Shown here: positions 900-58,040 of the stretch, piece by piece
Layout: each line of letters opens with the position of its first letter
Numbering within the stretch: the stretch's first letter is position 1
Notes under the pieces: generated by a model
Database searches by the model: none
Told to the model about the DNA's origin: nothing
What the model saw: only the letters and a program-made list of their open reading frames with translations
Translations under genes and position numbers: made by a program
DNA from: Micavibrio sp.
Lineage (GTDB): Bacteria > Pseudomonadota > Alphaproteobacteria > UBA9219
Assembly (NCBI GenBank): GCA_020718105.1
Contig: DYDA01000014.1
Span: forward strand, 1-58,754
Direction: 5' to 3'
Length of the DNA: 58,754 nt

Positions 900-2651
900 T
901 TATAACGCCGCTCTGAGAAGCGCTTTTGTGTATTCTTTTTGTGGCGCTTGAAACAGGGAATCCGCTGCGCCTTCTTCCACCACGTGGCCATCCTTCATCA
1001 CGATGACGTAGTTTGACAAAGCTTTCACGACGCGCAGGTCGTGGCTGATAAATAGGTAGGCAAGGCCATAGCGTTTTTGAAGATCACGCAAAAGGTCGAT
1101 GATTTGCGCCTGTACTGAGCGATCCAGCGCGGACGTTGGCTCATCCAAGATCACCAGCTTGGGACGTAGGATCATGGCGCGGGCAATTGCGATGCGTTGA
1201 CGCTGCCCGCCCGAAAACTCATGCGGAAAGCGTGTCTGCAAAGCGGGATCAAGGCCGACATCGCTCATGGCGGCTTCAATGCGGCTCTGGCGTTCTGCGG
1301 CGCTGCCCACAAGGCCGTGAATGTCGAGACCCTCTGCGATAATATCGCCCACCGTCATGCGGGGGCTGAGGCTGCCATAGGGGTCTTGAAACACGACTTG
1401 CATCGCTTGCCGTAAAGGCCGCATGTCCTTGCGTGAAAGGCTTTCTATGGACTGTCCATCAAAAATAATTTTGCCCGTGCAATCCGTGAGCCGCAAAAGC
1501 GCAAGCCCTAGCGTCGTCTTGCCGGAGCCGGACTCGCCAACAATGCCGATGGTCTCGCCAGCACGTAGGGTAAGGCTGATTCCATCCACGGCGCGGATGG
1601 TATCCGTCACGCGGCGCAGCAAGCCCGTCTTGATCGGAAAATGAACCTTGATGTTGTCGGCCTTCATCACCAGAGGCGCATCGGGCGCGGCCTTGGGCGC
1701 AAGCCCTTTGGGTTCTGAAGCCAGCAGCATTTTCGTATAGGGATGTTGGGGCGCGGCAAAAATTTCGTTGGTCTTGCCGCTTTCCACAATCTCGCCCGCT
1801 TTCATCACGCACACGCGATCCGCGATACGGCGCACGATGCCCAGATCATGTGTGATCATCAAAAGAGCCATGCCCATTTTTTGCTGAATATCTTTGAGAA
1901 GCGCCAGAATCTGCGCCTGAATGGTCACGTCCAGCGCGGTGGTGGGTTCATCCGCAATAAGCAGGTCGGGATCGTTCGCCAAAGCCATTGCGATCATCAC
2001 GCGCTGACGCTGCCCGCCCGACAGCTCATGCGGGTAGGCGGTCAGGCGTTTTTCGGGATCGGGCAGACCGACCAGCGCAAGAAGCTCTAGAATGCGTGTT
2101 TTGGCCGCTGTTTCGCTTAGTCCCTTATGGACAAAAAGAACTTCACCAATTTGTTTTTCAATCGTGTGCAGTGGGTTGAGCGAGGTCATTGGCTCTTGGA
2201 AAATCATCGCGATCCGATTGCCGCGAAGGTTTTGGATGGGGGTTTCGCTTTCATCCGTCATCGTCATCGCGAGGGGCGTAGCCCCGTGGCGATCCAGCGC
2301 CGCGCGTCCGCGCGGCAGAGGACTCCTTTGCGCGGTTAGCCTGCCCCGTGCTCGACACGGGGCCGCGCAGCTGGATTGCTTCGCTGCGCTCGCAATGACG
2401 GATGGGGGGGTGTCAGCATCGCAATGACGGTTGAGAATGACCAACCCATCAAACACAATCTGTCCCATCGGCTCTATAGGCAGAAGGCGCAGGATCGACA
2501 GCGCCGTGACGGACTTGCCAGAGCCGGACTCGCCCACCAGTGCCAAAGTCTCGCCTTTATTGATCGTGAACGACACGCCGCGCACGGCTTGCATCGCGCT
2601 CTCGCCGCTTCCAAACGTGACGCATAAGTTGGAGACGGAGAGGAGGGTCAT
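900..2651 (-). CDS. yejF: YejF-type dual ATP-binding ABC transporter subunit
   Basis: Cytoplasmic ATPase that powers peptide import through the YejB/YejE permease pair (in E. coli the Yej system takes up peptides, including microcin C). Two ABC modules are fused in one chain, as in YejF. Module 1 has Walker A GESGSGKS at residues 40-47, Q-loop FQEPMTSLNPL near 150, signature LSGGQRQR and Walker B LLIADEP. Module 2 has Walker A GESGSGKT near 370, Q-loop VFQDPYGSLSP, signature FSGGQRQR and LVILDEP. The start ATG overlaps the yejE stop by four bases (ATGA). Odd point: residues of about 84-130 of module 1, between Walker A and the Q-loop, are encoded by a dispersed palindromic repeat (2262-2400) in frame, making the protein longer (583 aa) than usual. 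Confidence 0.93.
   Translation of the reverse strand: MTLLSVSNLCVTFGSGESAMQAVRGVSFTINKGETLALVGESGSGKSVTALSILRLLPIEPMGQIVFDGLVILNRHCDADTPPSVIASAAKQSSCAAPCRARGRLTAQRSPLPRGRAALDRHGATPLAMTMTDESETPIQNLRGNRIAMIFQEPMTSLNPLHTIEKQIGEVLFVHKGLSETAAKTRILELLALVGLPDPEKRLTAYPHELSGGQRQRVMIAMALANDPDLLIADEPTTALDVTIQAQILALLKDIQQKMGMALLMITHDLGIVRRIADRVCVMKAGEIVESGKTNEIFAAPQHPYTKMLLASEPKGLAPKAAPDAPLVMKADNIKVHFPIKTGLLRRVTDTIRAVDGISLTLRAGETIGIVGESGSGKTTLGLALLRLTDCTGKIIFDGQSIESLSRKDMRPLRQAMQVVFQDPYGSLSPRMTVGDIIAEGLDIHGLVGSAAERQSRIEAAMSDVGLDPALQTRFPHEFSGGQRQRIAIARAMILRPKLVILDEPTSALDRSVQAQIIDLLRDLQKRYGLAYLFISHDLRVVKALSNYVIVMKDGHVVEEGAADSLFQAPQKEYTKALLRAAL
2262..2430. repeat. family B palindromic repeat inside yejF
   Basis: The element runs from CGTCATCGCGAGGGGCGTAG to CGCTCGCAATGACG, with arms that are imperfect inverted copies and an inner GC-rich palindrome. 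Its plus-strand ends match those of the copies at 23009-23132, 23617-23750 and 50568-50677. A second short CGCAATGACGG at about 2420-2430 repeats the right end (2391-2401), possibly a partial duplication. The yejF frame stays open through the whole element. Confidence 0.85.
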
Positions 2652-3694
2652 GCGCCGCCCCCCGTCGTTTTGCGCGCATCGAACGCATCGCGCACGGCCT
2701 CACCGATAAAGATGAGCAGCGTGAGCATAAACGCAAGAATAGAAAAAGCGCTGATGCCCAGCCACGGCGCTTGCAGGTTGTTCTTGCCTTGGTTGAGTAG
2801 TTCGCCCAGCGAGGGTGATCCGGGTGGCAGGCCAAAGCCAAGGAAGTCGAGCGCCGTCAGCGTCGTAATGGAATGGTTGAGCACAAACGGCAAATAGGTG
2901 AGCGTCGCGACCATCGCGTTGGGCAAGACATGCTTAAACATGACAAGCGTATCGCCAGCGCCAAGAGCCTTAGCCGCGCGAACGTAATCAAGATTGCGGG
3001 CTCGTAGAAACTCGGCCCTCACGACATGAACCAGCGACATCCACGAAAACAACAGCATGAGAATAAGGAGCCACCAAAAGTTGGGTTGCACAAGCGAGGC
3101 CATGATGATGAGCAGGTAGAGGACGGGCATCCCCCCCCATATTTCCATCACGCGCTGCATCAAAAGATCGGTGAGGCCGCCGAAGTAGCCCTGCACCGCG
3201 CCAGCGCACACGCCGATGATGGACGAAAATAGCGTGAGTGTCAGGCCGAACAAAACCGAGATGCGAAAGCCATAGATCATACGCGCCAAAACGTCGCGGC
3301 CTTGATCGTCTGTGCCCAGCCAGTTATCCGCCGAAGGCGGTGCGGGCGCGGGGACGGTTAGATCATAATTGATCGTGTTATAGGAAAACGGAATAAGCGG
3401 CCAGATCATCCAGCCTCCCTTTTCAGCGATCAGTTTTTTCAGGTAAGGCTCGCGGTATCGCGCTTCAGTTTCAAACTCGCCGCCAAAGGTGGTTTCGGGA
3501 TAGGCCTTAAAAATCGGCGCAAAGGCCTCGCCGTTCACATAAAGGAGGAGAGGCTTGTCGTTTGCGATCAGTTCTGCCGCCATCGCCAAAATAAACAAAA
3601 GCAGGAAAAGCCAAAACGCATAATAGCCACGCTTGTTGGCTTTAAAGCCATCCAAACGGCGGCGGGTGAGGGGGGAGAGGGAAGAAAAACCCAT
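2648..3694 (-). CDS. yejE: YejE-type ABC transporter permease
   Basis: Inner-membrane permease of the Yej peptide importer, partner of YejB and YejF. An N-terminal cytoplasmic stretch (about residues 1-25) leads into one membrane span, then a large periplasmic loop and a C-terminal bundle of about five spans. The binding-protein-dependent permease signature is visible (EFLRARNLDYVRAAKALGAG, followed by HVLPNA), the site that docks the ATPase. The start ATG at 3694 shares one base with the yejB stop (TGATG), and a GAGGAAG ribosome-binding site lies upstream. A GTG three bases earlier is possible. Its stop overlaps the yejF start by four bases, so translation is coupled. The 348-residue length is normal. 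Confidence 0.92.
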   Translation of the reverse strand: MGFSSLSPLTRRRLDGFKANKRGYYAFWLFLLLFILAMAAELIANDKPLLLYVNGEAFAPIFKAYPETTFGGEFETEARYREPYLKKLIAEKGGWMIWPLIPFSYNTINYDLTVPAPAPPSADNWLGTDDQGRDVLARMIYGFRISVLFGLTLTLFSSIIGVCAGAVQGYFGGLTDLLMQRVMEIWGGMPVLYLLIIMASLVQPNFWWLLILMLLFSWMSLVHVVRAEFLRARNLDYVRAAKALGAGDTLVMFKHVLPNAMVATLTYLPFVLNHSITTLTALDFLGFGLPPGSPSLGELLNQGKNNLQAPWLGISAFSILAFMLTLLIFIGEAVRDAFDARKTTGGGA

Positions 3695-4812
3695 CACGTC
3701 TTCCTCGCTTCGAAATCAATGCGGGGATCAACGGCCACGTACATCAAATCGCCAATCAGTTGCAGGATAAGCCCCAGCAGCGTGAAAAAATAAAGCGTGC
3801 CGAACATGACGGGATAGTCGCGGTTGATCGCGGCCTCAAAACCCAAAAGCCCCATACCGTCCAGTGAGAAAATGACTTCGATCAGCAGGGATCCTGTGAA
3901 CAAAATCCCGATAAACGCCGAAGGGAATCCGGCGATAACGATCAGCATCGCGTTACGAAACACATGGCCATACAGCACGCGGGTTTCGCTAAGACCTTTG
4001 GCGCGGGCGGTCAGGACGTATTGCTTGTTAAGCTCATCCAAGAACGAATTTTTTGTGAGCATGGTCAAACTGGCAAAGCCGCCAATCACCATCGCCGTGA
4101 GGGGCAGAGCCATATGCCAAAAATAATCACCGATCCGCGCAGGCCAACTTAAATCTTGCCAGTTGTCGGACACAAGGCCGCGCAGGGGGAACCAGTCCAG
4201 ATAGCGTCCGCCCGAAAAAACGATGATGAGTAATACGGCAAACAAAAAACTGGGAATCGCATAGCCCGCGATAATCGCCGCGCTTGTCCATAGATCAAAC
4301 GGCGAGCCATCCTTGACCGCTTTGCGAATGCCAAGTGGGATGGACACCAGATAGATGATGAGGGTTGACCAAAGGCCTAGCGAAACCGACACGGGCATTT
4401 TGGCAATGACGAGATCCATCACTTTTTCATCGCGGAAATAGGACGTGCCGAAATCAAAGCGCACGTAATTCCCGATCATCTTGAAAAAGCGCTCATGCAG
4501 CGGTTTATCAAAACCGAATTGTTTTTCAAGCTCTAGGATTAATTCAGGATCAACGCCTTGCGCGCCTTTATAGCGCGAAGGTACGGCGCTGGTGGCGGCG
4601 TTGTTCTCGCGCATGTTCTGCCCCGCGCTGGCCGTGTCGCTGCCTGCGCCTGACACCCGCGCCGTTGCCTCAACCGCGTTGCCTTGCAGTTTGGCGACGA
4701 TTTGCTCAATGGGACCCCCGGGGGCGGCTTGAACAATCGCAAAGTTCAGCACCATAATCCCCAGCAACGTGGGGATCATCAGCAACAGGCGGCGAAGGAT
4801 ATAACTAACCAT
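3694..4812 (-). CDS. yejB: YejB-type ABC transporter permease
   Basis: First permease of the Yej peptide importer. I place the start at 4812 (M-V-S-Y-I-L-R-R), where the first membrane helix of the DppB/YejB family begins; a longer frame to 4893 would run into the glycosyltransferase gene. One N-terminal span is followed by a long periplasmic loop containing a low-complexity Gly/Ala/Ser segment (about residues 50-85) common in alphaproteobacterial YejB, then five or so spans with the EAA-type motif ([12 protein letters not shown]). The yejBEF genes overlap end to end. No yejA gene for the periplasmic binding protein is present here; it must be elsewhere or be replaced by another binding protein. 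Confidence 0.9.
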
Positions 4813-4861
4813 GATGGGATGAGAGATTAGCTGGATGCAGTGTGAATGGGAAGGGGCGCGA

Positions 4862-6028
4862 TTAGCGGCGCTGTTTTTTGAGAATGTCGGCATAGACCCG
4901 CGCTATGGGCGGCCAATCCCACGAAAGCAGGGCAAACTCGGCAATGGCTTTGATCGGTTGAGCCAAAGGCAGCGAAATCGGGAAAGCCTTTAGTTTTTCA
5001 TACCATACGGCGGCGGTGCGCTCAGCGTTGTCGGGCCACACTTCGGCAAGGTGCAGATGCGGCGCAGCGGGGGCGCAGCCCTGCGCTGTTTCCGGTGCGC
5101 ACAAAACGGGAAGACCGCAAGCCATCGCTTCTTGAATGACAAGAGGAAAACCCTCGCCGTAACTGGGCATCAGCAAAAGGTCGGCGGCTTGATAAAGCTC
5201 AGCAAGGCTTTGTCCCTTACGATCGGAAAAGACGTGAACATTGGGAAGAAGCCATGTTGTCGGATCGATGGCGCCGGTTCCCGCCAGCCAAAACCGCCAA
5301 TCGGGAAAAAGGGTGGCAAGGCGGCGCAGAACGTCCAGCCCTTTCTTTTCAACAAAGCGACCCACGAAAAGCAAAACGGGTTGATCGTTTTTTAAAGCGA
5401 ACTGTTGGCGCAAAAAGCGACGGTTTTCTGCAATAGGGGGATGAAACAGGCGCACATCAACGCCGTTTGGAATAACCTTGATCGGTTTTGTGAATTTGAC
5501 GCGGCGATAATAATCATCGGCAACGCGGTCGCTGATAAAGATAACGTCGTCAGCGTTTTTCAGCATAGGCGCGGTGATCCCTTTATCCGCAAGGCGCATA
5601 AGCCATCGCAGAAGCGGATTGCGATAGGGAATGGGCGCGATATGTTGCGTGATGATGATGGGTTTGCCTGCTCGCTTGGCAAACAGGAAGGCCAAGATAT
5701 TGCCGACATAAAGCGTATCGTGCAGCCAAAGAAGATCGGCTTTTTGGATGGTGCGGCGCAGGTTGCGCAGGCTACGCCAGCCCCACAAAGGCATAGGCAA
5801 ACCAAGAACGCGTTCAATCACGTTGCACGATGTCATGGGGCTCATCGTCTGCCCCTCAATAACGGGGGCGGGGTCGCAATCGCTGGCCATCCAGATAAAG
5901 TGAAAATCGCCCAAGCTGGCTACTTCGTGAATCAATTTTTGAGCGACTTGTTCGATGCCGCCGCCATGACCGTTATAATAATGCGTCACAACGGCGATTT
6001 CGATTTTTTTATTCGGTGTGGCGGTCAT
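4862..6028 (-). CDS. GT4-family glycosyltransferase
   Basis: A 388-residue cytoplasmic retaining glycosyltransferase of the GT-B fold, family 4. The N-terminal domain carries the glycine-rich acceptor loop ([13 protein letters not shown], about residues 17-29). The C-terminal domain has [17 protein letters not shown] and the donor-binding E-x7-E region, [20 protein letters not shown]. Donor and acceptor cannot be told from sequence. It starts three bases after the stop of the Gfo/Idh/MocA oxidoreductase gene, so the two are very likely co-translated and may act in one sugar pathway. yejB follows 49 bases downstream. Confidence 0.85.
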
Positions 6029-6031: not shown

Positions 6032-7084
6032 TTAAGTGTTTTCTGTTAAAGCCTGCACGGCTTGTTGTTGTTGTTTTAAAACGGCCAACGCGGCTTGCGG
6101 CCCGATAAGCGCATCGGGCGCGCCTGTGTGAAGGGCGGTTTCAAAACGGCGCATAATCTCATCGTTACCATAGTCAAGGCGTCCACGCAAAAGAGCAAGG
6201 CCATTGGGCCAATGTTGGCAAAAATGTTGCCCAAAGGCATAGGCGCTGGTGCGTAGAATCTGCGCCGCGTTATGCTGGCCATCGTTGGGAAGGCGGATAT
6301 AGATGTCGCGGAAAATATCAAGAATCCCGACAGCTTTTTCGCCTGTCACCATAACATGCCACTCGCTGATCGCGCTGTCGAATTGGCAGTCGATGGTGAT
6401 GGGGATTCCGCTTTCATCGCGGTAGAGAAGGTTCACAAGAGACGGCGTGTTCTCGCCTTTTTGCCCCTTAACGCCATGCGCGTGGATAAGGTTCATGCGG
6501 CCTTGCGCCAATCCTTGCAGCAGGTAAAAGAAGTGCGGGCTTTCGTCATAAAAAAGGCCTAGCGGCAGGCTTTCATACCAAGCGGGAAGGCGGCGCAGGG
6601 GGTTGCCCAGCTGATGGGCTGCGATGCGCCGCAAAGGGCCAAGGCGGCCACAAGCCAAATCGCGACGAAGCTTTTGCGCGGCGCGGCCAAACTGAAAGTT
6701 ATGCACGATGCAAAGTGTTTTGCGGGCTTGCTGCGCGGCGGCAACCATCGCTTCGCCTTCGGCCAGCGTCAGCGCAAAGGGTTTTTCAACCAGCACATGC
6801 TTGCCTTTGGCCAGAGCGGCCAGAACGAGGGGCGCATGAGCGGCGGGCGGCGCGGCGATGGTCACGGCATCCACCTGATCCAGCCAATCCACCGCGTCTA
6901 AACAATCCGTTTGCGCGTAAAAGCGAAGGTTATGCTTCTTGGCAACCTGCGCCGCCAGCCCTTGATGACGATCAACCACGCCGACCAGCGAAAGGGAGGG
7001 GGCGCGATGAAGGGCGGGGATATGCCTGTGCAACGCTACCCAGCCAAGCCCAATGGCGGCGACGCGAAGCGGGGCGGGGATCAT
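6032..7084 (-). CDS. Gfo/Idh/MocA family NAD(P)-dependent oxidoreductase
   Basis: A 350-residue dehydrogenase-like protein. The N-terminal Rossmann fold shows V-A-A-I-G-L-G-W-V near residue 8 and the acid that binds the cofactor ribose (VVDR, near 36). The family hallmark E-K-P follows (HVLVEKPFALT, about residues 96-106), then the C-terminal alpha/beta substrate domain. Members reduce or oxidise sugar derivatives such as inositols or amino sugars; the substrate cannot be predicted. The start overlaps the end of the AAA ATPase gene by four bases and the stop is three bases before the glycosyltransferase gene, which supports one operon. Confidence 0.85.
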   Translation of the reverse strand: MIPAPLRVAAIGLGWVALHRHIPALHRAPSLSLVGVVDRHQGLAAQVAKKHNLRFYAQTDCLDAVDWLDQVDAVTIAAPPAAHAPLVLAALAKGKHVLVEKPFALTLAEGEAMVAAAQQARKTLCIVHNFQFGRAAQKLRRDLACGRLGPLRRIAAHQLGNPLRRLPAWYESLPLGLFYDESPHFFYLLQGLAQGRMNLIHAHGVKGQKGENTPSLVNLLYRDESGIPITIDCQFDSAISEWHVMVTGEKAVGILDIFRDIYIRLPNDGQHNAAQILRTSAYAFGQHFCQHWPNGLALLRGRLDYGNDEIMRRFETALHTGAPDALIGPQAALAVLKQQQQAVQALTENT

Positions 7085-7959
7085 CCTATGGCCAGCTTGT
7101 TCAGCCCTGTTTCAGAAGAAAGGGCGGCGGCGATAGAATCGTTATCCAATTCATCCGTCACGCCCTTCATGATGGCGTGGGCGCAGGCCTGATCCATCAT
7201 GATAATCGATTTATCGGGGTTGTTGCGGTTGCGAACATAGCGATCCGTTAGCTTGACGATGCGATCAATGGTGGCATCCGAAATCTTGAATTGATAGTGC
7301 GTTTCGAAATTGGGCCGCAGATAGCGCAAGATGCTGGCGGTCATCACAAGGTCGGGCACTTCTAGTGTGACTTTTTGAAAACGACGATCAATGGCAGGTT
7401 CTTGTTTGACGTAGTCGTCGTATTCCTCTGCCGTTGTGGCGCCGACGACAAAAAGATCGCCGTTGGTCAAGTAGGGCTTCAGCAAATCGGCGATGCCGCT
7501 AAAGCTAGAGGCTTTGAAAGAAATCATCAGCTGATGAATTTCATCGATGCAAAAAATGATGGGGGGAGATTGTTTTGAGGCGTTACGTTCAGCGACGCCT
7601 TTGACAATAGGAATCAACCGGCCTTCCAACTCGGCGCGAGAGGAGGAGCCAGCGCCGATCATGGACATTTCCAGTTCAATCACGCGCGCGCCTTGTAGAA
7701 GTTTGGGCACTTTGCCCGCGTTGATCAATTGGGCGAGGCCAACAAACAGCGCCGTTTTTCCAACGCCAGCGGGGCCAATCAGCATTGCGTTTTTGCGCAA
7801 GCGTTGAAGGAGGATGAGAACGACGTTTTGCAATTCTTGATCGCGGCCAGAGATGGGATCAAAGCGTCCCGCCTTGTCTTGTTCGGTGAAATCACGTGTG
7901 TAACGGGAAATAAGACCGTTCAATTCATCATCACTGATGATAAAGGAGGGCGTGGCCAT
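7081..7959 (-). CDS. single-module ClpA/ClpB D1-like AAA ATPase
   Basis: A 292-residue protein that is only one AAA module, closest by eye to the D1 domain of ClpB/ClpA. After FDPISGRDQEL come Walker A GPAGVGKT (about 64-71), Walker B IIFCIDEIH, sensor 1 VVGATTAEEY and an arginine finger in AIDRRFQKV, then the small helical lid. It lacks the ClpB N-domain, middle coiled coil and D2 module, and it has no ClpP-binding loop that I can see. All ATPase residues are present, so it should be active, probably as an oligomer. It lies 71 bases after the aconitase-like gene and overlaps the next gene by four bases. A remodelling role on one of these neighbours is an inference. Confidence 0.85.
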   Translation of the reverse strand: MATPSFIISDDELNGLISRYTRDFTEQDKAGRFDPISGRDQELQNVVLILLQRLRKNAMLIGPAGVGKTALFVGLAQLINAGKVPKLLQGARVIELEMSMIGAGSSSRAELEGRLIPIVKGVAERNASKQSPPIIFCIDEIHQLMISFKASSFSGIADLLKPYLTNGDLFVVGATTAEEYDDYVKQEPAIDRRFQKVTLEVPDLVMTASILRYLRPNFETHYQFKISDATIDRIVKLTDRYVRNRNNPDKSIIMMDQACAHAIMKGVTDELDNDSIAAALSSETGLNKLAIG

Positions 7960-8030: not shown

Positions 8031-10604
8031 TCAAACAGCCACAGGAATCAAGTTTCTGGCTGTCATCGCCCAAAGAGAGCCTTGTTCGAAGAGAGCGCGA
8101 TCCTCTGGCTCATCAAGGCGGCAAAGAAGCATATACCGATCGATATCATAACCGCGATCAATCGTCATCATCACCTCGCTGCGCGGCGTGACAAGTTCGG
8201 GGATGCCCACAAAACTGACGGTTTCTTTACCCGTAAGGTTGAGGCTCGCCAAAGACAGCCCCGCTTTAAGTTGAAGTGGCAATAGCCCCATGCGAATAAG
8301 ATTGCGACAGAATGAGGCGTTATAGCTTTGAGCAATAACAATCGTGACGCCAGAAAAACAAAGGGCTTTGGCGGCCCATTCTTGTTGCGCGCCTTTTCCA
8401 AAATCTGTGCCTGCCATCACGATCATCGGCGTTTTGTCTAAGGCATAGCGTTTGGCGGCCTCGCCGATGGGCATGGAAAGGCCGGTGGGAACATGCATGG
8501 TCATGCCCACCGCGTTAGGGTCTTGCAGCATTTTGTTTTCCAGCAAGGGGTGACCGAACGCACCCGCGATCATCTTTTCGAAATGACCTGTCGGGGGCAT
8601 CGTGGAAAAAGTCGTGGGGTCTGGCCCTATCCAACTGGCCTGCACACAATCGCCCCATAGGGCTAGAATTCGGGCATCGATAACATTGGTTTTTTTAAGC
8701 GGGGCTTTGGTGAACCCTTGCAAGGTCGGCGGCTCCCTTAACGCTGAAGAAACCTCGGCCCAAGGAAAGGTTGTTCCTTCCGGCGCTTTGATGTCTTGCC
8801 ACGCTGCCAAGGGTGGGGCGGTGAGAGGGGAGGGCTGCGACTCCGTCAAAGCATGAGGCGGCAAGGTTTCAAGAAAAGCGTTGATTTTTGCTGGGCTAGG
8901 CCAAATGTCTTTGAGGCTGACGGGTTTGCCATCGGCCCCCATCCCTAAGGTTTTTCCGGCAAGGTCGCTTGTTAAATTACCTAGAAGGGCATAGGCGATG
9001 ACAAGGGCGGGTGAGGCAATGAGGTTGACGCCGCAAGCGCGGCGAAGAGGCGTTGACGCAAAAGGAATTTCCTCTGTGCCAAGAGTGCAAACCGTCAGGT
9101 TCTTTCCTTTTATGGCGTTGAGAATAGGCGGGGAAAGGGGGGCTTGGCTTTGGCTTTGGGCGTAGGCGTCCTTTTGGCGAAAACCTAAAGAATCGAACGC
9201 TGTTTGAAGTCCCGTTTCTTTCAAGAACGAAGCCAAAGGAACGGGCATATCCGCCATAATGGTTTTGACCCATGGCTTGACAACCAACCCTTTTTCTTTG
9301 GCTTCACGAGCGAGAAGGGCGGCAATCACCAGCTCTGTTGGATGCGAGGGGGCGGACGCGCCGCCTAGGCTGGCCAGCAAAATATCCCCCTGTTTGACGG
9401 GCGCAAGAGGATCATAAGAGCCGCTGGGCAGAGAGGCTGTTTTTTCGAAGAAAGAAGCAACCTCGCTTAAGGGAAGAACGGTTCTTGATGAATCGCAAAA
9501 ACGAACGACAGGACGAATGGTGTCCAGATCAAGCTCAATCAGTGTATTGAAAGTGGGGTTTTGGGGGGAATCGACCCCGCTTTCTCGCCACAGGCCTTGG
9601 GCGCGGGCATAGGCTTCAATGAGGGCGGTGCGATCCGAATCTTGACTCGTTTGATTGCGGTGAGAAATTGTGGCGGCATCAATGGGAAAGAGAGTCGTTA
9701 AAACACCTTCTTGTTGCTCGGCCATAAGGGCAATGGTGGCGCGATCAGCAAGGCTTAAATGGTCAAGGCCAGCGCCCAAGAATTCAATAACCTTGCCTTC
9801 GGCTTCGCCTCGGTGAAGAAGAAGCATGATGGTAAGGGCAATGTCCGTGATGCCGATTCCCTTATGCGGTTTACCCGTTATTTTAAGGCCTATCAGAGGG
9901 GGGACGGTTAGTTTCATGGGATGGCCGAGCATCAGGCTTTCAAGTTCAAGAACCTCTGTGGGCCAACCAAGAACGCCCTTATGGCCAAGGACAGGAATGT
10001 TCCGTTGCGAGCCCATAATCGTTTCAGGAAAAACAAGATCGTTTTCCATCGTTGGGCTTGGCTCAACGTGAAGGGTGGGAACAATGTTGGCCAGCGGGCT
10101 TTGCGCTTCCTCAGCGCTTTGCTGCGGGAGGAGTTGAAGGGCCGTCAGATTCTTTTCGGCCCATTTAAGAAGCTTATAGCGTTCGCCTTTTTGATCGGCA
10201 GAGGCGGGCTCTTGCGCGATGGCAATGGTTAAAGGATAGGCCGAGGCAACCGGCGTTGCGGTTTCGATTTGGCTGGCGGCCAGTGTGTTGGCGAGGCTGA
10301 TGATATCGGTAAGCGCCGAAACGCCCTCTGCCTCATCCATGGCAAGGCGCGAGGGATGAAAAACAATTTTCGGCTGGCTTTTTTGTAAAGCATGCAGCGC
10401 TGTGAGCGAACGCATATCATCAACGGTGACGTTCTGGGCATCTTCGTGACGCAGAAGATTCTCAAGCAAGATAAGGAAAAAATAAGGCAAATGGGAAAGG
10501 TCGCCTAAGGTGTTTTCCGCAGTCTTCAGGTTATAAAAACCATAGTGTTTTTCACCAACTTGCAGCGTGTCATAGCTGTGAAGGGTATTGAGGCTAAAAG
10601 ACAT
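8031..10604 (-). CDS. aconitase A-like pseudoenzyme lacking iron-sulfur and catalytic residues
   Basis: An intact 857-residue protein with the full AcnA/IRP domain order. Clear landmarks are LLENLLR near residue 35, VLGW..LE.E..MLGHP near 205, EFLGAGLDHL.LADRATIA near 260, FPIDAATI, AYA.AQGLWRESG, KPWVKT, LKDIWPS, GARILALWGD-like text (DARILALWGDC) near 650, and AGTDFGKGAQQEWAAKAL near 740. Every functional motif is changed. The first cluster cysteine motif SCTN is SLGGAS near 410. The GCTTCIGN pair is AYAQSQSQ near 480. DSHT is GSQRN. DSVTTDHISPAG is DCVQASWIGPDP. GSGSSRDW is GKGAQQEW. It cannot hold a 4Fe-4S cluster or isomerise citrate. The frame is long and free of stops, so it appears to be under selection for another role, such as RNA or partner binding. 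The start at ATG 10604 follows an AAGG site; TTG 10613 is an alternative. Confidence 0.85.
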   Translation of the reverse strand: MSFSLNTLHSYDTLQVGEKHYGFYNLKTAENTLGDLSHLPYFFLILLENLLRHEDAQNVTVDDMRSLTALHALQKSQPKIVFHPSRLAMDEAEGVSALTDIISLANTLAASQIETATPVASAYPLTIAIAQEPASADQKGERYKLLKWAEKNLTALQLLPQQSAEEAQSPLANIVPTLHVEPSPTMENDLVFPETIMGSQRNIPVLGHKGVLGWPTEVLELESLMLGHPMKLTVPPLIGLKITGKPHKGIGITDIALTIMLLLHRGEAEGKVIEFLGAGLDHLSLADRATIALMAEQQEGVLTTLFPIDAATISHRNQTSQDSDRTALIEAYARAQGLWRESGVDSPQNPTFNTLIELDLDTIRPVVRFCDSSRTVLPLSEVASFFEKTASLPSGSYDPLAPVKQGDILLASLGGASAPSHPTELVIAALLAREAKEKGLVVKPWVKTIMADMPVPLASFLKETGLQTAFDSLGFRQKDAYAQSQSQAPLSPPILNAIKGKNLTVCTLGTEEIPFASTPLRRACGVNLIASPALVIAYALLGNLTSDLAGKTLGMGADGKPVSLKDIWPSPAKINAFLETLPPHALTESQPSPLTAPPLAAWQDIKAPEGTTFPWAEVSSALREPPTLQGFTKAPLKKTNVIDARILALWGDCVQASWIGPDPTTFSTMPPTGHFEKMIAGAFGHPLLENKMLQDPNAVGMTMHVPTGLSMPIGEAAKRYALDKTPMIVMAGTDFGKGAQQEWAAKALCFSGVTIVIAQSYNASFCRNLIRMGLLPLQLKAGLSLASLNLTGKETVSFVGIPELVTPRSEVMMTIDRGYDIDRYMLLCRLDEPEDRALFEQGSLWAMTARNLIPVAV

Positions 10605-10746: not shown

Positions 10747-11220
10747 ATGATTCTCCAACCGTTTTTATGCGTGCGCATGACCTTGATTCGCTTTTTTCTT
10801 TTTTCGGCCTTCTTGTTGGTGTCTATGGGGTTGTCCTCTGCGGCGCAGGCGGCTTTTTTGTTTTGTAACAAAACAGGCGTCGTGATTGAGGCTGCCTTTG
10901 GCCATCGGGATGAGAATGCTTGGATTTCTGAAGGCTGGTGGCAGATTCAGCCGGGGCAATGCTCACGCGTGTATCACAAACCGTTGTCGCAAAGGTTCTA
11001 TTTTTATTACGCCCGCGCGTTGGATTCGCCTTCTAAAGGCGGCAAGGAACCTATGGTCTGGGCGGGGAAATACTCCTTTTGCGTGGACTCTAAGGCCTTT
11101 CGCGTGGAAGGGGATAATTGCGCGGCGCAGCATTACCAAACAAAAGGCTTTCAAGAGGTGGATGTCGGCCTCCGTCAAAAGGATTATACCTTGACCTTTC
11201 ACGGGCAAGATGGTCAGTAA
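10747..11220 (+). CDS. DUF1036 family exported protein
   Basis: A small secreted or periplasmic protein of the DUF1036 family, common in Alphaproteobacteria and of unknown function. The N-terminus is a signal peptide: basic start, hydrophobic core (LFSAFLLVSMGLSSA) and an A-x-A cleavage site (AAQAAF) near residues 34-36. The mature part starts with the family pattern FCNKTG, then GWWQIQPGQC and further paired cysteines (FCVDS, DNCAAQH). ATG at 10777, giving a more typical signal peptide, is an equally good start, as neither has a clear ribosome-binding site. The gene is divergent from the aconitase-like gene. plsC follows in the same direction 67 bases on. Confidence 0.8.
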   Translation: MILQPFLCVRMTLIRFFLFSAFLLVSMGLSSAAQAAFLFCNKTGVVIEAAFGHRDENAWISEGWWQIQPGQCSRVYHKPLSQRFYFYYARALDSPSKGGKEPMVWAGKYSFCVDSKAFRVEGDNCAAQHYQTKGFQEVDVGLRQKDYTLTFHGQDGQ

Positions 11221-13813: not shown

Positions 13814-14494
13814 ATGTCGGATCCAATAAAACAATTAGCAGAGTTAGAAGCACTTCTTGATGACAAGATGGTGGTTCTTTTAAAAAAGCAAAATGAAATT
13901 CTAATCTTTGTCGATACCGATCACAAAGCCAAGGCGACAAAGGCGTATCAAAAGGAAATTCATGATCTGACCGTTCAAACGAACAAGCTGGTCGTTCAGG
14001 CGATAGAAAAACGAATGGAAATGGGGCTCTTGGAAAAGGAAGCCAAACGTCTTTCTCAAAGCAGCCAGTTCTTGTACGCCCTTGGTAGCGACTTGAAACA
14101 AATTCTGGATCTTGACTTAGCGCGTTGCGAAAAAAAGGAAGCGTTCGACATTGTAAAAGTCGTGGGAAGCGTTGTGGGTCTGGCGGCGGGGTTTGTAACG
14201 GTAGCAAAGAACACGTTCGATCCTAGCTCTTCTCATGCGACGTATGAAGTTGCGGCTGGTGCGACGACAGGACTTGTCATTACATCGCACAAAAGCATAT
14301 CTGCCGTATTTTCTGGGTGCGTTAAATACTTGTGCAATACCAACGCGAAAATTTGCAACAGCTTTGCCTTATATTACGCAGTGGAAAGCGCAAAAGATTC
14401 TGCGAGATATTCTCTAGCGCCCTTAAGAAACGAAAAATCGTTTTTGATTATCGGAAACAACCCGAATCCTATGAAGGGTCGTGATCCAAGCTAG
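13814..14494 (+). CDS. hypothetical protein with helical N-half and hydrophobic centre, 226 aa
   Basis: Not recognised. The start is well supported by AGGGAG eight bases before the ATG. Residues 1-95 are charged and heptad-like, probably a coiled coil. A hydrophobic glycine/alanine-rich segment (IVKVVGSVVGLAAGFVTVA, about 113-131) could be a membrane hairpin or span, and a second weakly hydrophobic part follows near 150. Cysteines cluster near residues 168-182. No homologue comes to mind. The 3' end overlaps the convergent small gene at 14469-14666 by 26 bases. It is flanked by miaB and uvrC, neither of which suggests a role. Confidence 0.6.
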   Translation: MSDPIKQLAELEALLDDKMVVLLKKQNEILIFVDTDHKAKATKAYQKEIHDLTVQTNKLVVQAIEKRMEMGLLEKEAKRLSQSSQFLYALGSDLKQILDLDLARCEKKEAFDIVKVVGSVVGLAAGFVTVAKNTFDPSSSHATYEVAAGATTGLVITSHKSISAVFSGCVKYLCNTNAKICNSFALYYAVESAKDSARYSLAPLRNEKSFLIIGNNPNPMKGRDPS

Positions 14495-17391: not shown

Positions 17392-18633
17392 TTACAGGCC
17401 TTTCTTGAAAGGGAAGGCGTGTGGAATAAAAAGAAAGCCTGCTGGCACAACAATCTGCTTCACGAACAAACCCAGCATAAGGCCGTTGACGCTCCCCACA
17501 ATCAAAGAAACATAGACGACAGGAATCGTGACAATCAAGTTTGTTACAGTAAAACTTAACAAACGACGCGAGCCTGCTTTGGCAAAGACATTGTGAGAGC
17601 AAAAAAACTCAAACGAAATGCCGCAAAGCAAAAGACCCGACAAGGCCACGGATAAAAAATCATAGCGATAAGCCTCGCCAAAAATAGAAGGCGACAGATA
17701 ATAAAAGGCGATGACATAAACAAGGGCCACCAAAGGCACGAGAGCAAAGGCATAAAAAGAGCGCTTCTTATCCTTTTGGCCTTTGGTGAAAAACAGGGTT
17801 CGATAGAAAAGGGGGATCATCGCATCGAAAAGACGTGAACCTTCCTGTGGAACCATGATCAAGAGGGAATAGCTGGCCAACGCCGCGGCGCCAACTTCAT
17901 GCCGCAGCCATAACTTATCAACCGAAAAAGCCGCCGTATAAGCAAGACCTGCCAGCGTCATGCTAAGCGCTGAATAAAGGGTGCGGCGCGTCGCCTCGCT
18001 CAACCATGAGTCTTTGAGATTCTTGTTTTTGTTAGTGCACGCGTTTCTTTCTCGCAGAGCCACGGGAAAAAAAACGATAAGCGTCGGGATAATGAGCGCC
18101 AGCAGATACGCAGGAAACAGAGCAATAGGCGCAAGCTTCATTCCATAAATAAAGCCCCAAAAAACGATAAGAAGAAGAAGGCTGAATAAGCGCGTGCGCA
18201 ATAAAAGATTCAAAGAAACATCACGGAGTCTCATCCCAATTAGATAGTTGCGATAGCCTGTTCCTGTTTCAAAAAAGGGCAGCAAAACGACCATAACGAA
18301 AAGAAAAAAGCGCAAAGAGGCGCTCAATCTATCCTCAAAAATCAAAAGGCCCGCAAGCAGCAGGCAAGAGCCGAAAAGGGCAAAGATGAATCTTAAGGTG
18401 AAAATGCGCAAAAGGCCGATGGCGCGATTCATATGACTGTTGCGAAGAATGATGGAGTCGTAGCCTGACAAAGAAAACGCCATCAAGAGAGGGAGCAATG
18501 TCATGGCGGTTCTAAGCTCACCATAGTCATCTTGTGATAAACATCTTGCGCCGCCGATGACAAAGAGCAAGCTGATCAACGCATTCAATCCATGGGCAAA
18601 GCCGTTTTTGAAAACGAGTTTTAAGCCGCGCAT
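17392..18633 (-). CDS. polysaccharide flippase-like membrane protein
   Basis: A 413-residue polytopic protein with about 12 hydrophobic spans and the N-terminal pattern of the Wzx/MATE-like flippase superfamily (F-x-N-G-F-A-H-G-L-N-A-L, then G-A-R-x-L-S-Q-D-D-Y-G-E). Such proteins move lipid-linked sugars across the inner membrane. The start at 18633 gives the usual first helix and overlaps the deacetylase gene by 13 bases; the frame reaching 18690 lies inside that gene. With the deacetylase, methyltransferase and divergent polymerase-like gene it forms a small surface-polysaccharide group. Confidence 0.75.
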   Translation of the reverse strand: MRGLKLVFKNGFAHGLNALISLLFVIGGARCLSQDDYGELRTAMTLLPLLMAFSLSGYDSIILRNSHMNRAIGLLRIFTLRFIFALFGSCLLLAGLLIFEDRLSASLRFFLFVMVVLLPFFETGTGYRNYLIGMRLRDVSLNLLLRTRLFSLLLLIVFWGFIYGMKLAPIALFPAYLLALIIPTLIVFFPVALRERNACTNKNKNLKDSWLSEATRRTLYSALSMTLAGLAYTAAFSVDKLWLRHEVGAAALASYSLLIMVPQEGSRLFDAMIPLFYRTLFFTKGQKDKKRSFYAFALVPLVALVYVIAFYYLSPSIFGEAYRYDFLSVALSGLLLCGISFEFFCSHNVFAKAGSRRLLSFTVTNLIVTIPVVYVSLIVGSVNGLMLGLFVKQIVVPAGFLFIPHAFPFKKGL

Positions 18634-19460
18634 GAGCCTTGCGCCTTTCCCTTGATAAAACGCATGGCGGCGGAAATTCTGTCGCCCCAACCTTCCACAT
18701 AAGCCTCAACCACAAAGGGCAGGCGAAGGCCTATGTTCGTGCGCTTAAGAAGCAAGGAGCCTTTGGAATCTTCTAAAAAACCTGAATCAGAAGTGAAGCC
18801 ATAGGCATAACCAGCGGTCTTTACATCTTGCGCGATCACAGAATCATAAAGGCCAAAGGGATAGGAAAAACAGCGCACTTTTAGGCCTAGTTTTTCTTCT
18901 AGCGCGGCGCGGTCTTGGGCTATAAGGGGCGGGCGATCCTCTGGCCTTGCGGTCAGCATGTTGGTGTGCCCTCGCCCATGCCCCCCTATTTCTGCCCCTT
19001 GCTTAGCCAAAGAGGCCAATTGGTCCCATGTCAAGGAAGACTCTTGCCATGTTTTGATGCGTTCTTGGCAATAACGCTTTGCCGCCACGTCATCCAATCC
19101 GACAAAATCAGAACTGACAAACAAAAGAGGCTTCACCCCATGCGCCGCAAAAAGCCGCGCTCCCGCCTCAAACCAAGAACGATAGCCATCATCAAAAGCC
19201 ACAATCACATTGATCTGCGTTAAAGATTTTTTGCCTTGCAGATAGTCATCAAAGGAAAGCAGATGATAACGCCGCGTCAAAGTTTGTAGAATGCGATCAA
19301 ACAGCGCCGCATCGTCAAGATGATGAAAAACAAGGACGCGTGTTTTGCCATGATCACGTGCGGCCAGTGACGGCATCACAGCGCGAGTTAAAAGGCATAA
19401 CGCGCCCGCCAGATAAGCGCGGATACGACTGCGGATCATGATAGAGCGATTGCCTGCCAT
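18621..19460 (-). CDS. polysaccharide deacetylase (NodB homology, CE4-like)
   Basis: A 279-residue protein with a short hydrophobic N-terminus (about residues 12-28, perhaps a membrane anchor) and the NodB fold. Motif 1 is VIVAFDDGY near 95, motif 2 H-G-x-x-H is represented by IGGHGRGHTNM near 160 (family: S/T-H-S-x-x-H), and FSYPFGLYD near 205 is the later family motif. It likely removes N-acetyl groups from a cell-surface glycan. ATG at 19439 is an alternative start. It lies 7 bases after the methyltransferase gene. Confidence 0.8.
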   Translation of the reverse strand: MAGNRSIMIRSRIRAYLAGALCLLTRAVMPSLAARDHGKTRVLVFHHLDDAALFDRILQTLTRRYHLLSFDDYLQGKKSLTQINVIVAFDDGYRSWFEAGARLFAAHGVKPLLFVSSDFVGLDDVAAKRYCQERIKTWQESSLTWDQLASLAKQGAEIGGHGRGHTNMLTARPEDRPPLIAQDRAALEEKLGLKVRCFSYPFGLYDSVIAQDVKTAGYAYGFTSDSGFLEDSKGSLLLKRTNIGLRLPFVVEAYVEGWGDRISAAMRFIKGKAQGSCAA

Positions 19461-20364: not shown

Positions 20365-21429
20365 ATGAACGTATTGAAACACAAAACCTTTCTTGTTCAA
20401 AAGTGGAAAGAGATGCAGGAATCGGCAGGCGCTCTGGCTCTTGATCCTGCTTATCTGGTTCGTTCTATGGCTCTCTTGCTTCTGGCTTTTGCCGGATGGA
20501 ATCTTATTGCGTTTTATTTCATAAGAGAATCCGTTGAGCCTGTTGTCAGCGCCGTCCGTCTTTTGATTGAAGGCGTTTTTGTGTACGGCCTTTTCCGTTG
20601 GATTCCCAAAGCACCGCCATGGATTATGAAGGCCGTCCTTATTCTTTCCAGCCTTAGCAGTCTTGTCGTTTTCATCCAAATTCTTGAAGAAGCCAAAATT
20701 TTGCCGACAAATTTCCGCTGGATCATGACGGATTTTTGGCATCTTTATCCTGAAGCCAGCCGCAAAACAGGGCTGCTGAATAATTATCAGGTTTCATCCT
20801 TTCTTGGCTTTTTGGCTGTCGTTCTGCTTATCAATCGCAAAAAAACGACATCGGTGGCTCTTGCCGTTGTCAACGGATTTTCCGTCCTTTTTGGCGCGCG
20901 CACGCTTTTCCTGATCTGGCCTTTTTTACTCATGGTCAATAAGCGAGTTCTTATCGCCATGATTCTAACGCTCTCGGCCTTGTATATGTTGGGAACGCCT
21001 GAGCTGAAGAAGCTCCTTATTTATCATGTTGAGTTGCGTCTTGCCCCTGCTGTCCTTGTGGTTTCAACGGGCGATTTCAAGAAAGATTATTCCGCAAAGG
21101 ATACGTTGTTTCAATATAAAGCGCCTCAAGACATTCAAACCTTTTGGCTTGGCAATGGTCAGCCTCGTTATTCTGAAGGGGGCGGCTTTGATCCCGTTGC
21201 AAGCCGTTGGCTTTTACAATCGGGCCTTCCTTCTATGATTTTAGTGCTTGCCATTTCTTTTCTGGTGATTGCGAAAATTGCGGTGAAGAAAGGGCTGCAA
21301 AATAAAGTTTTTGCGGTGGCGCTTTTGTTGCTTATTGTTAAAGGGGAAACAATCACGTCAACATTGGGATTCCCTCTTCTTCTCCTTTATGGCTTTTCTC
21401 CTCCAGAAGAAGAGGAAGAAAAGGCTTAA
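20365..21429 (+). CDS. polytopic membrane protein, O-antigen polymerase-like
   Basis: A 354-residue inner-membrane protein with about nine or ten hydrophobic spans and a larger outside loop (about residues 215-280) that includes the text GNGQPRYSEGGGFDP. The layout, with a periplasmic loop before the last three spans, is that of Wzy/O-antigen ligase-like proteins, but sequence similarity is too low for certainty. The C-terminus ends in a run of glutamates. It is divergent from the polysaccharide genes at 17392-20160 and 21 bases upstream of ubiT in the same direction. Confidence 0.55.
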   Translation: MNVLKHKTFLVQKWKEMQESAGALALDPAYLVRSMALLLLAFAGWNLIAFYFIRESVEPVVSAVRLLIEGVFVYGLFRWIPKAPPWIMKAVLILSSLSSLVVFIQILEEAKILPTNFRWIMTDFWHLYPEASRKTGLLNNYQVSSFLGFLAVVLLINRKKTTSVALAVVNGFSVLFGARTLFLIWPFLLMVNKRVLIAMILTLSALYMLGTPELKKLLIYHVELRLAPAVLVVSTGDFKKDYSAKDTLFQYKAPQDIQTFWLGNGQPRYSEGGGFDPVASRWLLQSGLPSMILVLAISFLVIAKIAVKKGLQNKVFAVALLLLIVKGETITSTLGFPLLLLYGFSPPEEEEEKA

Positions 21430-21450: not shown

Positions 21451-22002
21451 ATGCAAAAACGATTGTTTCCTTTAACCTTGGCTAAAATGGCGCTTACGGC
21501 GGCCCCGCCATCGGTTGTGGCGCGAGCAACGGAAATCGTTGTGCAGCGTATTCACAGACGTCATCCCAAGCTGTTCGCCAATCTTGCAAAGCTTAGCAAG
21601 GCCGTTGTTTTTTTTGAGCCGACGGACGCTGCGCCCTATCGTTTTGCTTTAACACTGGGGCAGGCGCCTGTGCGTTTTTTCGTTCTTGCTCCTCATGAAC
21701 AACAAGAGCAACCTGACGCCACGATTTCTGGCTCGTTGCAAGATTTAATCGCGATGCTAGAGGGGCGCGAGGATGGCGACACGCTCTTTTTCTCTCGCGC
21801 TATTCAGGTTGTTGGCGATACGTCCGTGATCGTGGGTCTTCGTAACACGCTGGATCGTGAGGAAATGGATCTTAGGGATGAGATACTGTCCCTCTTTGGT
21901 CCCTTCGCAAAACCGGCAGAGGCTTTTTTATCGCTGGCGGATACGTTTGGCATGCGCCTTTATGAACGGATAAAGACGATTCATGAAACCTCCCTATCTT
22001 GA
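21451..22002 (+). CDS. ubiT: UbiT, SCP2-domain accessory factor of O2-independent ubiquinone synthesis
   Basis: A small protein of about 183 residues with an SCP2 sterol-carrier-like domain, matched to UbiT (YhbT) by fold pattern and by direct linkage to ubiU and ubiV. In E. coli UbiT, UbiU and UbiV replace the oxygen-dependent hydroxylases; UbiT is thought to bind the lipid intermediates. Visible features are RFALTLGQAPVRFFVL near 60 and DATISGSLQDLIAMLEGRED near 90. The ATG at 21451 is preferred to a TTG three bases before. The stop overlaps ubiU by 20 bases. Confidence 0.85.
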   Translation: MQKRLFPLTLAKMALTAAPPSVVARATEIVVQRIHRRHPKLFANLAKLSKAVVFFEPTDAAPYRFALTLGQAPVRFFVLAPHEQQEQPDATISGSLQDLIAMLEGREDGDTLFFSRAIQVVGDTSVIVGLRNTLDREEMDLRDEILSLFGPFAKPAEAFLSLADTFGMRLYERIKTIHETSLS

Positions 22003-22981
22003 ACTGGTCTGCCCTGCGGGCACGCCTGCCGCGCTTCGCGCTGCCATCGATGCGGGGGCGGACACGGTCTATGTTGGGTTTCGCGACAGCACGAACGCGC
22101 GGAATTATCCAGGACTGAACTTCGATGTTGAGGAAATGGCCGAAGGCGCAACCTATGCTCATGAGCGCGGGCGTAAGCTGCTTGTCGCCATCAACACCTT
22201 TCCCCGCGCGGGCGAGGCAGAGCCATGGCATACGGCCATCGCCAATGCGGCGGCGATTGGTGCGGATGCGGTGATCATGGCCGATATCGGCCTTTTGGAT
22301 TATGCCTCGCGCAAACACCCAAACCTCAGGCGGCATTTATCGGTTCAGGCGGCGGCCTCAAACCCGCTTTCTATCGCCTTTTATCGTGACAATTTTGACA
22401 TTAAACGGGTCGTTTTGCCGCGTGTTTTGTCGGTCGAGGAAGTGGCCGCGATTATCGGTGAAATACGCATTGAAACAGAAGTGTTTTGCTTTGGCAGCGT
22501 TGGCACGATGTCCGAGGGCCGGTGCTTTTTGTCTTCGTATATGACGGGGCTATCGCCCAGCCATGATGGCGCTTGCGCCCCCGCCAGCCATGTCGCTTAT
22601 AAGGAAGAAGAGGGCGGCTGCCGCCTTGCCTGCCTTGGTGATGTCACGCTTAATCGTTTTGGCAAGGATGAGGCCGCATCCTATCCCACGCCTTGCAAAG
22701 GGCGCTATGTCACGATGGGGCAACCTTCGTATTTGTTCGAAGAGCCTGTAGGGTGGAACGTGATTGATATTCTCCCTCAGCTGAAAGCGGCGGGCGTCAC
22801 CGCGTTGAAGATTGAGGGCAGGCAACGCTCACGCGCCTATGTCACGCAGGTTGTCGGCACTTTTCGGCAAGTGCTGGACGCGCTGGCGCGTGGTGAGACG
22901 GACGTGGACACCGGCGCTTTGCATCAGCTTGCCGAAGGGGGCCGCCAAACCCTTGGCGCGTATCAAAAGGGGTGGCGATGA
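21983..22981 (+). CDS. ubiU: UbiU, U32-family component of O2-independent ubiquinone hydroxylase
   Basis: A peptidase-U32-family protein (332 aa) that with UbiV carries out oxygen-independent hydroxylations of the ubiquinone ring. It starts ELVCPAGTPAALRAAIDAGA and has the family DTVYVGFRD and SVQAAASNP blocks. E. coli UbiU binds a 4Fe-4S cluster through cysteines spaced C-X6-C-X16-C-X38-C. Here C181, C198 and C238 fit the last three, but the residue seven before C181 is G174. Other cysteines nearby (C169, C213, C217) might substitute. ATG 21983 lies inside the end of ubiT. Confidence 0.92.
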   Translation: MKPPYLELVCPAGTPAALRAAIDAGADTVYVGFRDSTNARNYPGLNFDVEEMAEGATYAHERGRKLLVAINTFPRAGEAEPWHTAIANAAAIGADAVIMADIGLLDYASRKHPNLRRHLSVQAAASNPLSIAFYRDNFDIKRVVLPRVLSVEEVAAIIGEIRIETEVFCFGSVGTMSEGRCFLSSYMTGLSPSHDGACAPASHVAYKEEEGGCRLACLGDVTLNRFGKDEAASYPTPCKGRYVTMGQPSYLFEEPVGWNVIDILPQLKAAGVTALKIEGRQRSRAYVTQVVGTFRQVLDALARGETDVDTGALHQLAEGGRQTLGAYQKGWR

Positions 22982-23008
22982 TGGGATATTTATCGATTCA
23001 TAGCCCCC

Positions 23009-23132
23009 CGTCATCGCGAGAAGGCTCGAAGAGCCGACGTGGCGATCCATCTCCAAAACTTTCCGCTATCGTCTTTGTTGCTTTTTGCAGGAGTTGGATT
23101 GCCACGCTCCCGTTGGTCGCTCGCAATGACGA
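23009..23132. repeat. family B palindromic repeat between ubiU and ubiV
   Basis: Starts CGTCATCGCGAGAAGGC and ends GCTCGCAATGAC, with GGCGATCC and GGATTGCC as inverted inner arms. It separates ubiU from ubiV, which are usually adjacent, by 175 bases. A second member of the same family lies in frame inside ubiV. Confidence 0.85.
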
Positions 23133-23156
23133 TATTTCTTGTTGGGATCAATTGTC

Positions 23157-26713: not shown

Positions 26714-26714
26714 C

Positions 26715-54971: not shown

Positions 54972-55069
54972 AAATTGGCTTGAAACAGGATTTGAACATT
55001 ACTTGATGCGAACGTTTTGCGCTTACGCGCACAAACGCCTGCATCCTTCTTCTTTTTCTGCCCAGAAGA

Positions 55070-55184: not shown

Positions 55185-55286
55185 CATCAGGGCAGAAAGA
55201 AAAGAAGCAATGAAAGCGTCTACAGTCAGAGTTAGGGCGCTGGATTTTACGGCCAACGCCTCACTTTTATAAATATCTGATTTCAG

Positions 55287-58040
<2,754 letters not shown>

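Follow-up and report, generated by a model that had tools for sequence, protein, structure and literature searches.

The described systems closest to the gene reported here are AcnA-type proteins with a role beside, or in place of, catalysis. Moonlighting aconitases such as CitB of Bacillus subtilis are active enzymes that switch upon loss of their iron-sulfur cluster, and a published account credits them with what may be a second role outside catalysis (PMC7430163). Vertebrate iron regulatory protein 2 (IRP2), an aconitase homologue kept for another role, is described as having neither an iron-sulfur cluster nor aconitase activity (PMC4056636), and pseudoenzymes in general are presented as well known (PMC7435893). 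Here we compare with these systems a gene, designated acn*, in a window that comprises the whole 58,754-nucleotide stretch analysed from Micavibrio sp. (Alphaproteobacteria; assembly GCA_020718105.1, contig DYDA01000014.1). Our best reading of its sequence is that acn* encodes a bacterial pseudo-aconitase whose closest known analogue would be eukaryotic IRP2. We put at roughly three in four the probability that it is a vertically inherited acnA that turned into a pseudoenzyme and has been kept under purifying selection, likely for a non-catalytic binding job. No report of a bacterial pseudo-aconitase, or of a matching metabolic pattern, turned up in searches of the open-access literature, and the statement in the original prediction for this DNA that it knew of no such described bacterial family holds as far as those searches go.

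acn* resembles the CitB-type proteins in being AcnA-type and in its possible second role, but it is without their usual cluster ligands. IRP2 is the nearest precedent, since it too is a homologue without activity (in acn* inactivity is predicted from the residues) and its fold matches. However, IRP2 is eukaryotic, stands beside IRP1 and binds the iron-responsive element (IRE), whereas acn* is a bacterial orthologue in a genome where no other aconitase was found, and most of the IRP1-type contacts are gone. AcnB, LeuC/LeuD and aconitase X belong to the same superfamily and give weak sequence or fold matches to acn*, but they differ in domain order or size, while acn* is AcnA-type by sequence, place and tree. 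With AcnA itself, the cytosolic aconitase (PF00330 plus PF00694), acn* shares domain order, full-length homology, predicted fold and native gene place; it departs from AcnA in having neither the cluster cysteines nor the catalytic Ser, Arg and His, in scoring below the NCBIfam cut-offs, and in a host where the pathway enzymes were not found.

By the reading of the window's open reading frames, acn* is one uninterrupted minus-strand frame at 8031-10604 (857 codons plus stop; ATG at 10604, stop codon at 8031-8033), with a TTG at 10613 as an alternative start. Both domains of the AcnA/IRP1 superfamily exceed their Pfam gathering scores and follow the AcnA order: Aconitase (PF00330) reaches 159.3 bits over residues 77-482 (cut-off 28.7) and Aconitase_C (PF00694) 74.1 bits over residues 673-784 (cut-off 22.8). 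A sequence search of the PDB matched acn* near full length to IRP1 chains (E 4.4e-95 and 3.5e-90). Its scores nevertheless fall short of the NCBIfam AcnA cut-offs (437.4 against 945 for TIGR01341, 493.4 against 686 for NF006757, 484.9 against 905 for NF009520), and its 288 bits against TIGR02333 (cut-off 1419.85) set it apart from the 2-methylisocitrate dehydratase AcnD. An AlphaFold2 model, built from an alignment with 41 ordinary AcnAs, has the aconitase fold, with a mean predicted local distance difference test (pLDDT) of 79.8 and a predicted template modelling score of 0.81. Its best structural match is the AcnA-isocitrate dehydrogenase model 9a4j (Z 44.7), followed by IRP1 2b3x (Z 42.4), RNA-bound IRP1 3snp (40.4, root-mean-square deviation 9.1) and 3sn2 (40.1), and IRP2 6vcd (34.6). 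The domain scores, the IRP1 matches and the predicted fold together back the earlier claim that the whole AcnA/IRP fold is kept over 857 residues. The stretches of the model below pLDDT 50 (residues 127-132, 163-168, 479-488, 516-520, 522-524, 587-597, 663-673 and the last three) lie mostly at or beside the former active-site loops.

What acn* has lost is the active site. Residue labels here follow IRP1-style numbering, with the columns of C503, C506, R536 and R541, which pairwise alignment misplaces, set by motif; some of these labels are approximate. S778 and R780 are the catalytic Ser and Arg of aconitase, and R536 and R541 its substrate arginines. All three cluster ligands, C437, C503 and C506, are replaced or deleted, as are H126, H178, D205, S206, H207, R536, R541, H673, R713, S778, S779 and R780. 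On the minus strand, the former GTDSHT active-site segment is now GSQRNI (9996-10013, residues 198-203), the SCTN loop of C437 is GASA (9351-9362, residues 415-418, with A416 for the cysteine), and the former GCTTCIGN loop of C503 and C506 (9141-9170, residues 479-488, in the model below pLDDT 50) is replaced and shortened. Further along the protein lie the former GNRNFEGR segment of R536 and R541 (9048-9074, residues 511-519), the TTDHISPAG segment, now QASWIGPDP (8616-8642, residues 655-663), and the GSGSSRDW catalytic segment, now GKGAQQEW (8376-8399, residues 736-743). This mapping agrees with the original prediction that the three cysteines, DSHT, the GNRNF arginine segment and GSGSSRDW had been replaced. 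The loss of SCTN, too, was called correctly; its pairing with SLGG was about three residues off, which changes nothing.

These losses are clade-wide and acn* is no lone relic. A PF00330 search of all 33 genomes of the order, 24 of which make up the family, with the matches listed in full, found a degenerate acn in seven: all six of genus g1 (G000, the window genome, to G005) and G013 of genus g9. It is complete on one contig in five of these and split over two contigs in G001 and G004, and no stops were reported inside the matched frames of the seven species. C503 and C506 are gone in all seven and C437 in six, G013 having a lone Cys there, so that the cysteine-less clade which the original prediction had proposed to look for does exist. 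In the order G000, G005, G001, G004, G002, G003, G013, the C437 column reads A,P,E,R,H,S,C, the R536 column I,A,D,Q,P,D,D and the R541 column P,P,P,E,Y,S,P. R713 has become T in every one and R780 has become Q in six and K in one; S778 and S779 are absent throughout, as are both substrate arginines. The DSHT, ICHQ and DHISPAG motifs are gone, with stray survivors (D205 in G004, H207 in G001, D125 in G003 and G013), while the tryptophan of the catalytic segment (W743 in acn*) is kept in 7/7. No column has a Cys in all seven that might replace the ligands; the best, C828, has it in six and is an ancestral Cys. Of the columns that do not vary among 16 ordinary AcnAs, 58, including C503 and C506, are altered in every one of the seven forms, while 71 near-invariant columns (at least 15 of the 16) are kept in all seven.

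Named AcnA controls from other bacteria keep the motifs: with looser patterns, all 80 retain SCTN, the CxxC loop, RNFE and RDW. A stricter count of six patterns is matched in full by 65 of them; 15 miss at least one pattern, four of these the CxxC pattern, and the four read GCTSCIGN, GCTTCMGN or GCMTCMGN. Three genomes, G018, G011 and G026, miss the GNRNFE pattern and read SNRNFE. In a tree of 33 AcnA sequences the seven degenerate forms make up one clade (support 100/100), with the G012 sequence as its sister (99/93) and the ordinary AcnA of G010 next.

In the closest pair the frame is under purifying selection. Between G000 and G005, which are 82% identical here at a synonymous divergence (dS) of about 0.6, the ratio of nonsynonymous to synonymous rates (dN/dS) is 0.174 by NG86 and 0.190 by YN00 (bootstrap 0.14-0.22), well under 1, which answers the earlier call for such a test on orthologues for the closest pair. 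Neither gene has a stop, against a mean of 26 and a minimum of 12 in 200 neutral simulations. Across the protein, residues 1-96 and 192-286 have the lowest dN/dS (0.09 each) and residues 97-191 the highest (0.38). The first 50 residues (10455-10604, minus strand) are about as conserved in six of the degenerate species (mean identity 0.51) as in the 16 ordinary AcnAs (0.53). Where ancestral columns were invariant, C, H and S have disappeared for the most part while K, W, P and A mostly stayed: mean identity in the degenerate forms is 0.12 for C (3 columns), 0.16 for H (6) and 0.21 for S (12), against 0.92 for K (4), 0.86 for W (7) and 0.66 for P (25). Constraint has thus been lifted from part of acn* and kept on the rest. 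Matched frames free of internal stops in seven species and, for one pair, a dN/dS of 0.17-0.19 do not describe a pseudogene; an enzyme homologue with its catalytic residues gone, its frame intact and purifying selection upon it describes a pseudoenzyme, a term in which the lack of catalysis is predicted from sequence.

acn* is the acnA orthologue in the ancestral acnA place. It lies between a divergently oriented gene for a DUF1036 protein (10747-11220, plus strand), the ancestral neighbour upstream of acnA, and a stand-alone ClpB/ClpV D1-like AAA ATPase of 292 residues (7081-7959, minus strand), the ancestral neighbour downstream of acnA in the order; a Gfo/Idh/MocA oxidoreductase (6032-7084) and a group 1 glycosyltransferase (4862-6028), both on the minus strand, are syntenic neighbours. 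The DUF1036-acn-AAA order is found on one contig in five of the seven genomes (G000, G005, G002, G003, G013); in G001 and G004, whose acn is divided between two contigs, DUF1036 shares a contig with the beginning of acn, and the AAA gene lies on the one that carries the remainder. Gfo/Idh follows AAA on the same contig in six of seven, and in G002 it is on the contig with the rest of AAA. The same arrangement surrounds the ordinary acnA of G010, G009, G029 and G025, with other sequence between acnA and AAA in G009 and G025, as well as the gene of G012. Since it sits in the same place beside the same genes, acn* was most simply inherited there, neither acquired nor duplicated. No second aconitase-domain gene was found in the window genome (96% complete); acn* is thus the acnA orthologue itself and not, as had been considered, a paralogue beside a normal acnA. 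The gene can also be lost: in G006 (locus L190, contig C8; 99% complete) DUF1036 and AAA are still present but nothing recognisable as acn lies between them, the genome's sole PF00330 match being a LeuC-sized frame of 485 residues, and G007 has no PF00330 match at all.

The pathway enzymes searched for were not found beside degenerate acn. Citrate synthase (PF00285) is found in 20 of the 33 genomes, including 17 of the 18 that carry an ordinary acnA (counted by PF00330 score and frame length, with motifs viewed in nine and in the partial G021 gene), the exception being G021, 82% complete. It gave no match in any of the seven genomes with degenerate acn. Among seven genomes with no AcnA-type gene, three have it. 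PF00180 matches occur in two of the seven degenerate-acn genomes, both LeuB above its cut-off (one read in part), so that isocitrate dehydrogenase of the PF00180 type was found in none of the seven, the monomeric family not having been searched. 2-Oxoglutarate dehydrogenase E1 (TIGR00239) was likewise found in none of the seven and in five of the 15 genomes searched. Some genes in the window, an anaerobic ribonucleoside-triphosphate reductase with a radical SAM activase-like protein (24586-27602), two U32 peptidases upstream of these (21983-24200) and a formate-tetrahydrofolate ligase, would fit an anaerobic, fermentative life. MiaB and the activase-like protein keep their CxxxCxxC motifs, and iron-sulfur proteins seem still to be in use in this organism.

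We hypothesize that three enzymes, citrate synthase, isocitrate dehydrogenase and 2-oxoglutarate dehydrogenase E1, disappeared from the lineage, that aconitase catalysis would thereby have become useless, and that decay of the active site and of the [4Fe-4S] ligands followed. The protein would have been retained by purifying selection, most likely for a non-catalytic job carried out through its folded surface. Because no pathway was found, ligands and catalytic residues are gone, and the frame is intact and constrained, a non-catalytic role is the likeliest one. Partner binding or scaffolding would be its likeliest form, with protein a likelier partner than RNA and with the N-terminal 50 residues and the domain 1-2 core as the candidate surface. 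The original prediction argued that function lost while the frame stays open suggests another job; this argument withstands the tests that the prediction had set itself, on shared losses, on selection and on cysteines elsewhere in the chain.

Several points weigh against this reading. We infer the order of events, the absence of remaining catalysis and the binding role, and the function, expression and any partner of acn* are presumed. Among the seven genes whose dN/dS was computed against G005, acn* ranks highest (Gfo/Idh 0.17-0.18, glycosyltransferase 0.14-0.15, MiaB 0.07-0.08 and AAA 0.03 among them), and selection is well measured in one pair, since G000-G001 gives 0.19 at a dS of 2.2, near saturation. 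The G000 protein is 34-42% identical to those of G002, G003, G004 and G013, against 71-76% for the AAA neighbour, while six ordinary AcnA pairs are 72-78% identical with AAA at 65-75%. This faster change, together with the highest dN/dS, indicates that much of the constraint is gone. The link to citrate synthase is not strict in the family, as G006 has the enzyme without acn and G021 the reverse. The genomes are mostly drafts (G001 is 78% and G013 62% complete), and absences hold at the sensitivity of the profiles. The structural model may lean to the AcnA fold because its alignment consisted of ordinary AcnAs. Finally, the tree program flagged long branches and odd composition within the degenerate clade, which makes the single-clade result less sure, and trees of the neighbouring genes leave G010, G013 and the genus unresolved with G012 outside all of these. 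The cluster ligands may accordingly have been lost once, as in the AcnA tree, or twice, as the neighbour-gene trees allow.

The G012 gene (locus L007, contig C66) is partly decayed. It keeps the three cluster cysteines, R536, R541, R713 and R780, and has T and P for the S778/S779 pair, Q for the DHISPAG histidine and SCAS for SCTN; its genome, 98% complete with 6% contamination, gave no match for citrate synthase. If G012 is truly sister to the degenerate clade, the state of its gene suggests that the pathway went first, catalysis next and the cluster last; G012 may instead be a parallel case, because the neighbour-gene trees place it outside G010, G013 and the genus. A tentative extension, which we hold possible and well short of probable, is that the clade separates aconitase's two lives in nature: the catalytic half would have been erased once the cycle was lost, while an ancient non-catalytic role of AcnA, older than the clade and perhaps common to ordinary AcnAs, is what kept the gene, with G012 half-way along or on a second path. 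The boldest form of this idea has a new His/Glu site, built around H421 and E424, taking the place of the old cluster site.

Other explanations for the retention of acn* are less probable than a binding role of the kind proposed above. One is that acn* is an RNA-binding regulator like apo-IRP1 or IRP2, with the cluster permanently gone, so that the protein would stay in its RNA-binding state and control mRNAs. CitB is described as a bacterial aconitase that moonlights as an RNA binder on cluster loss and that also bound a negative-control mRNA, so that RNA binding by aconitases can be less specific (PMC7430163), and the account of IRP2 as an aconitase homologue with neither cluster nor activity (PMC4056636) offers a further precedent. 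The IRP1 residues listed as RNA contacts are R269, S371, K379, T438, N439, S681, P682, R713, R780, D781 and W782 (PMC4184891). All seven degenerate forms retain W782 and an acidic residue at D781, and four retain P682; the other eight (R269, S371, K379, T438, N439, S681, R713 and R780) are not conserved as a group. Loss of S371 and K379 is weak evidence, since the ordinary G010 AcnA itself has A and R at these positions, but that protein has S681, R713, R780, T438 and N439. Among the structural matches of the model is RNA-bound IRP1 (3snp, Z 40.4), albeit at a deviation of 9.1. acn* is acidic (isoelectric point 5.49, 69 K+R against 88 D+E), and the seven degenerate forms, at 5.4-6.6 with two partial frames, are not more basic than five ordinary AcnAs at 5.9-6.7, although the G012 frame, taken from a tentative start, comes to 8.98. 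Given an acidic protein in which the IRP1 RNA pocket has not been preserved, we rate IRP1-like RNA binding as improbable; the suggestion in the original prediction of binding "as apo-IRP1 does" finds little support, the contact residues not being kept as a set.

Slightly less probable still is a new enzyme, in which the cleft would have been rebuilt around H315, H421, E424 and the ancestral D309, perhaps with a single metal ion, for another reaction. H315, R364, H421, E424, T672 and R771 are invariant in the seven degenerate forms and present in at most two of the 16 ordinary AcnAs, and the clade-specific pair H421 and E424 (9333-9344, minus strand; H315 at 9660-9662) lies just past the old C437 loop in sequence. 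However, among seven sequences a few invariant columns would arise by chance, changes in packing may account for several of these residues, and the old cleft loops fall below pLDDT 50. We regard as similarly doubtful the notion that acn* and the AAA neighbour form a working pair, with a chaperone or motor acting together with a scaffold or adaptor. Their order is shared by all seven degenerate-acn genomes and by G009, G010, G012, G025 and G029, and the AAA protein is very conserved with intact Walker A and B motifs, but the order would be explained just as well if both belonged to one operon with unrelated genes. AAA is also retained in G006, where acn is missing, and is separated from acn in G016 and G017; kept in these genomes, it is not dependent on acn. 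A relic in slow decay, its function gone and the gene just not yet lost, is very improbable, for although acn* is strongly accelerated relative to its neighbours and acn is absent from some relatives, the G000-G005 dN/dS of 0.17-0.19 (bootstrap 0.14-0.22) and frames with no internal stop reported in seven species, where about 26 would be expected without selection in that pair alone, argue against it.

Bacterial aconitases are reported to moonlight, and since one protein performs both jobs, the second is difficult to tell apart from catalysis. In this clade the catalytic residues and ligands have been removed while the protein is kept in at least seven species, with a partly decayed relative and gene-less ones, and the non-catalytic role thus becomes directly testable. 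Homology annotation could call acn* an aconitase and draw a tricarboxylic acid cycle step that is not there.

Further candidates for a degenerate AcnA were sought among seven of the lowest scorers in the PF00330 matches listed for 241 genomes of the class, a scan in which a strong LeuC in a genome could hide a degenerate AcnA. Three of them (G097, G196, G276) proved on reading to be intact AcnB, and a fourth (G234) is an intact aconitase of another type; in G051, G078 and G156 the matches are short and partial. Within the order, a weak match of 890 residues in G008 was not counted as degenerate, as its start is presumably that of an AcnB and its neighbours differ from those of acnA.

The AAA ATPase has relatives at 54-96% identity in 30 of the 33 genomes of the order, the window's included (G008, G019 and G023 are the exceptions), and matches of at most 40% identity in 26 other genomes of the class that were searched. 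Its Walker A and B motifs are intact, and with a dN/dS of 0.025-0.027 against G005 it is far more constrained than acn*. Elsewhere in the window, 900-4893 encodes YejB- and YejE-type permeases of a microcin C transporter, which exceed the NCBIfam cut-offs, and a YejF-like ATPase that falls short of its own. Open reading frames at 13814-14494 (226 residues), 17392-18690 (432 residues) and 20365-21429 (354 residues) gave no Pfam match at E 1e-4. Near the contig end, at 55069-58578 on the minus strand, lie 5S and 23S rRNA genes and two tRNAs.

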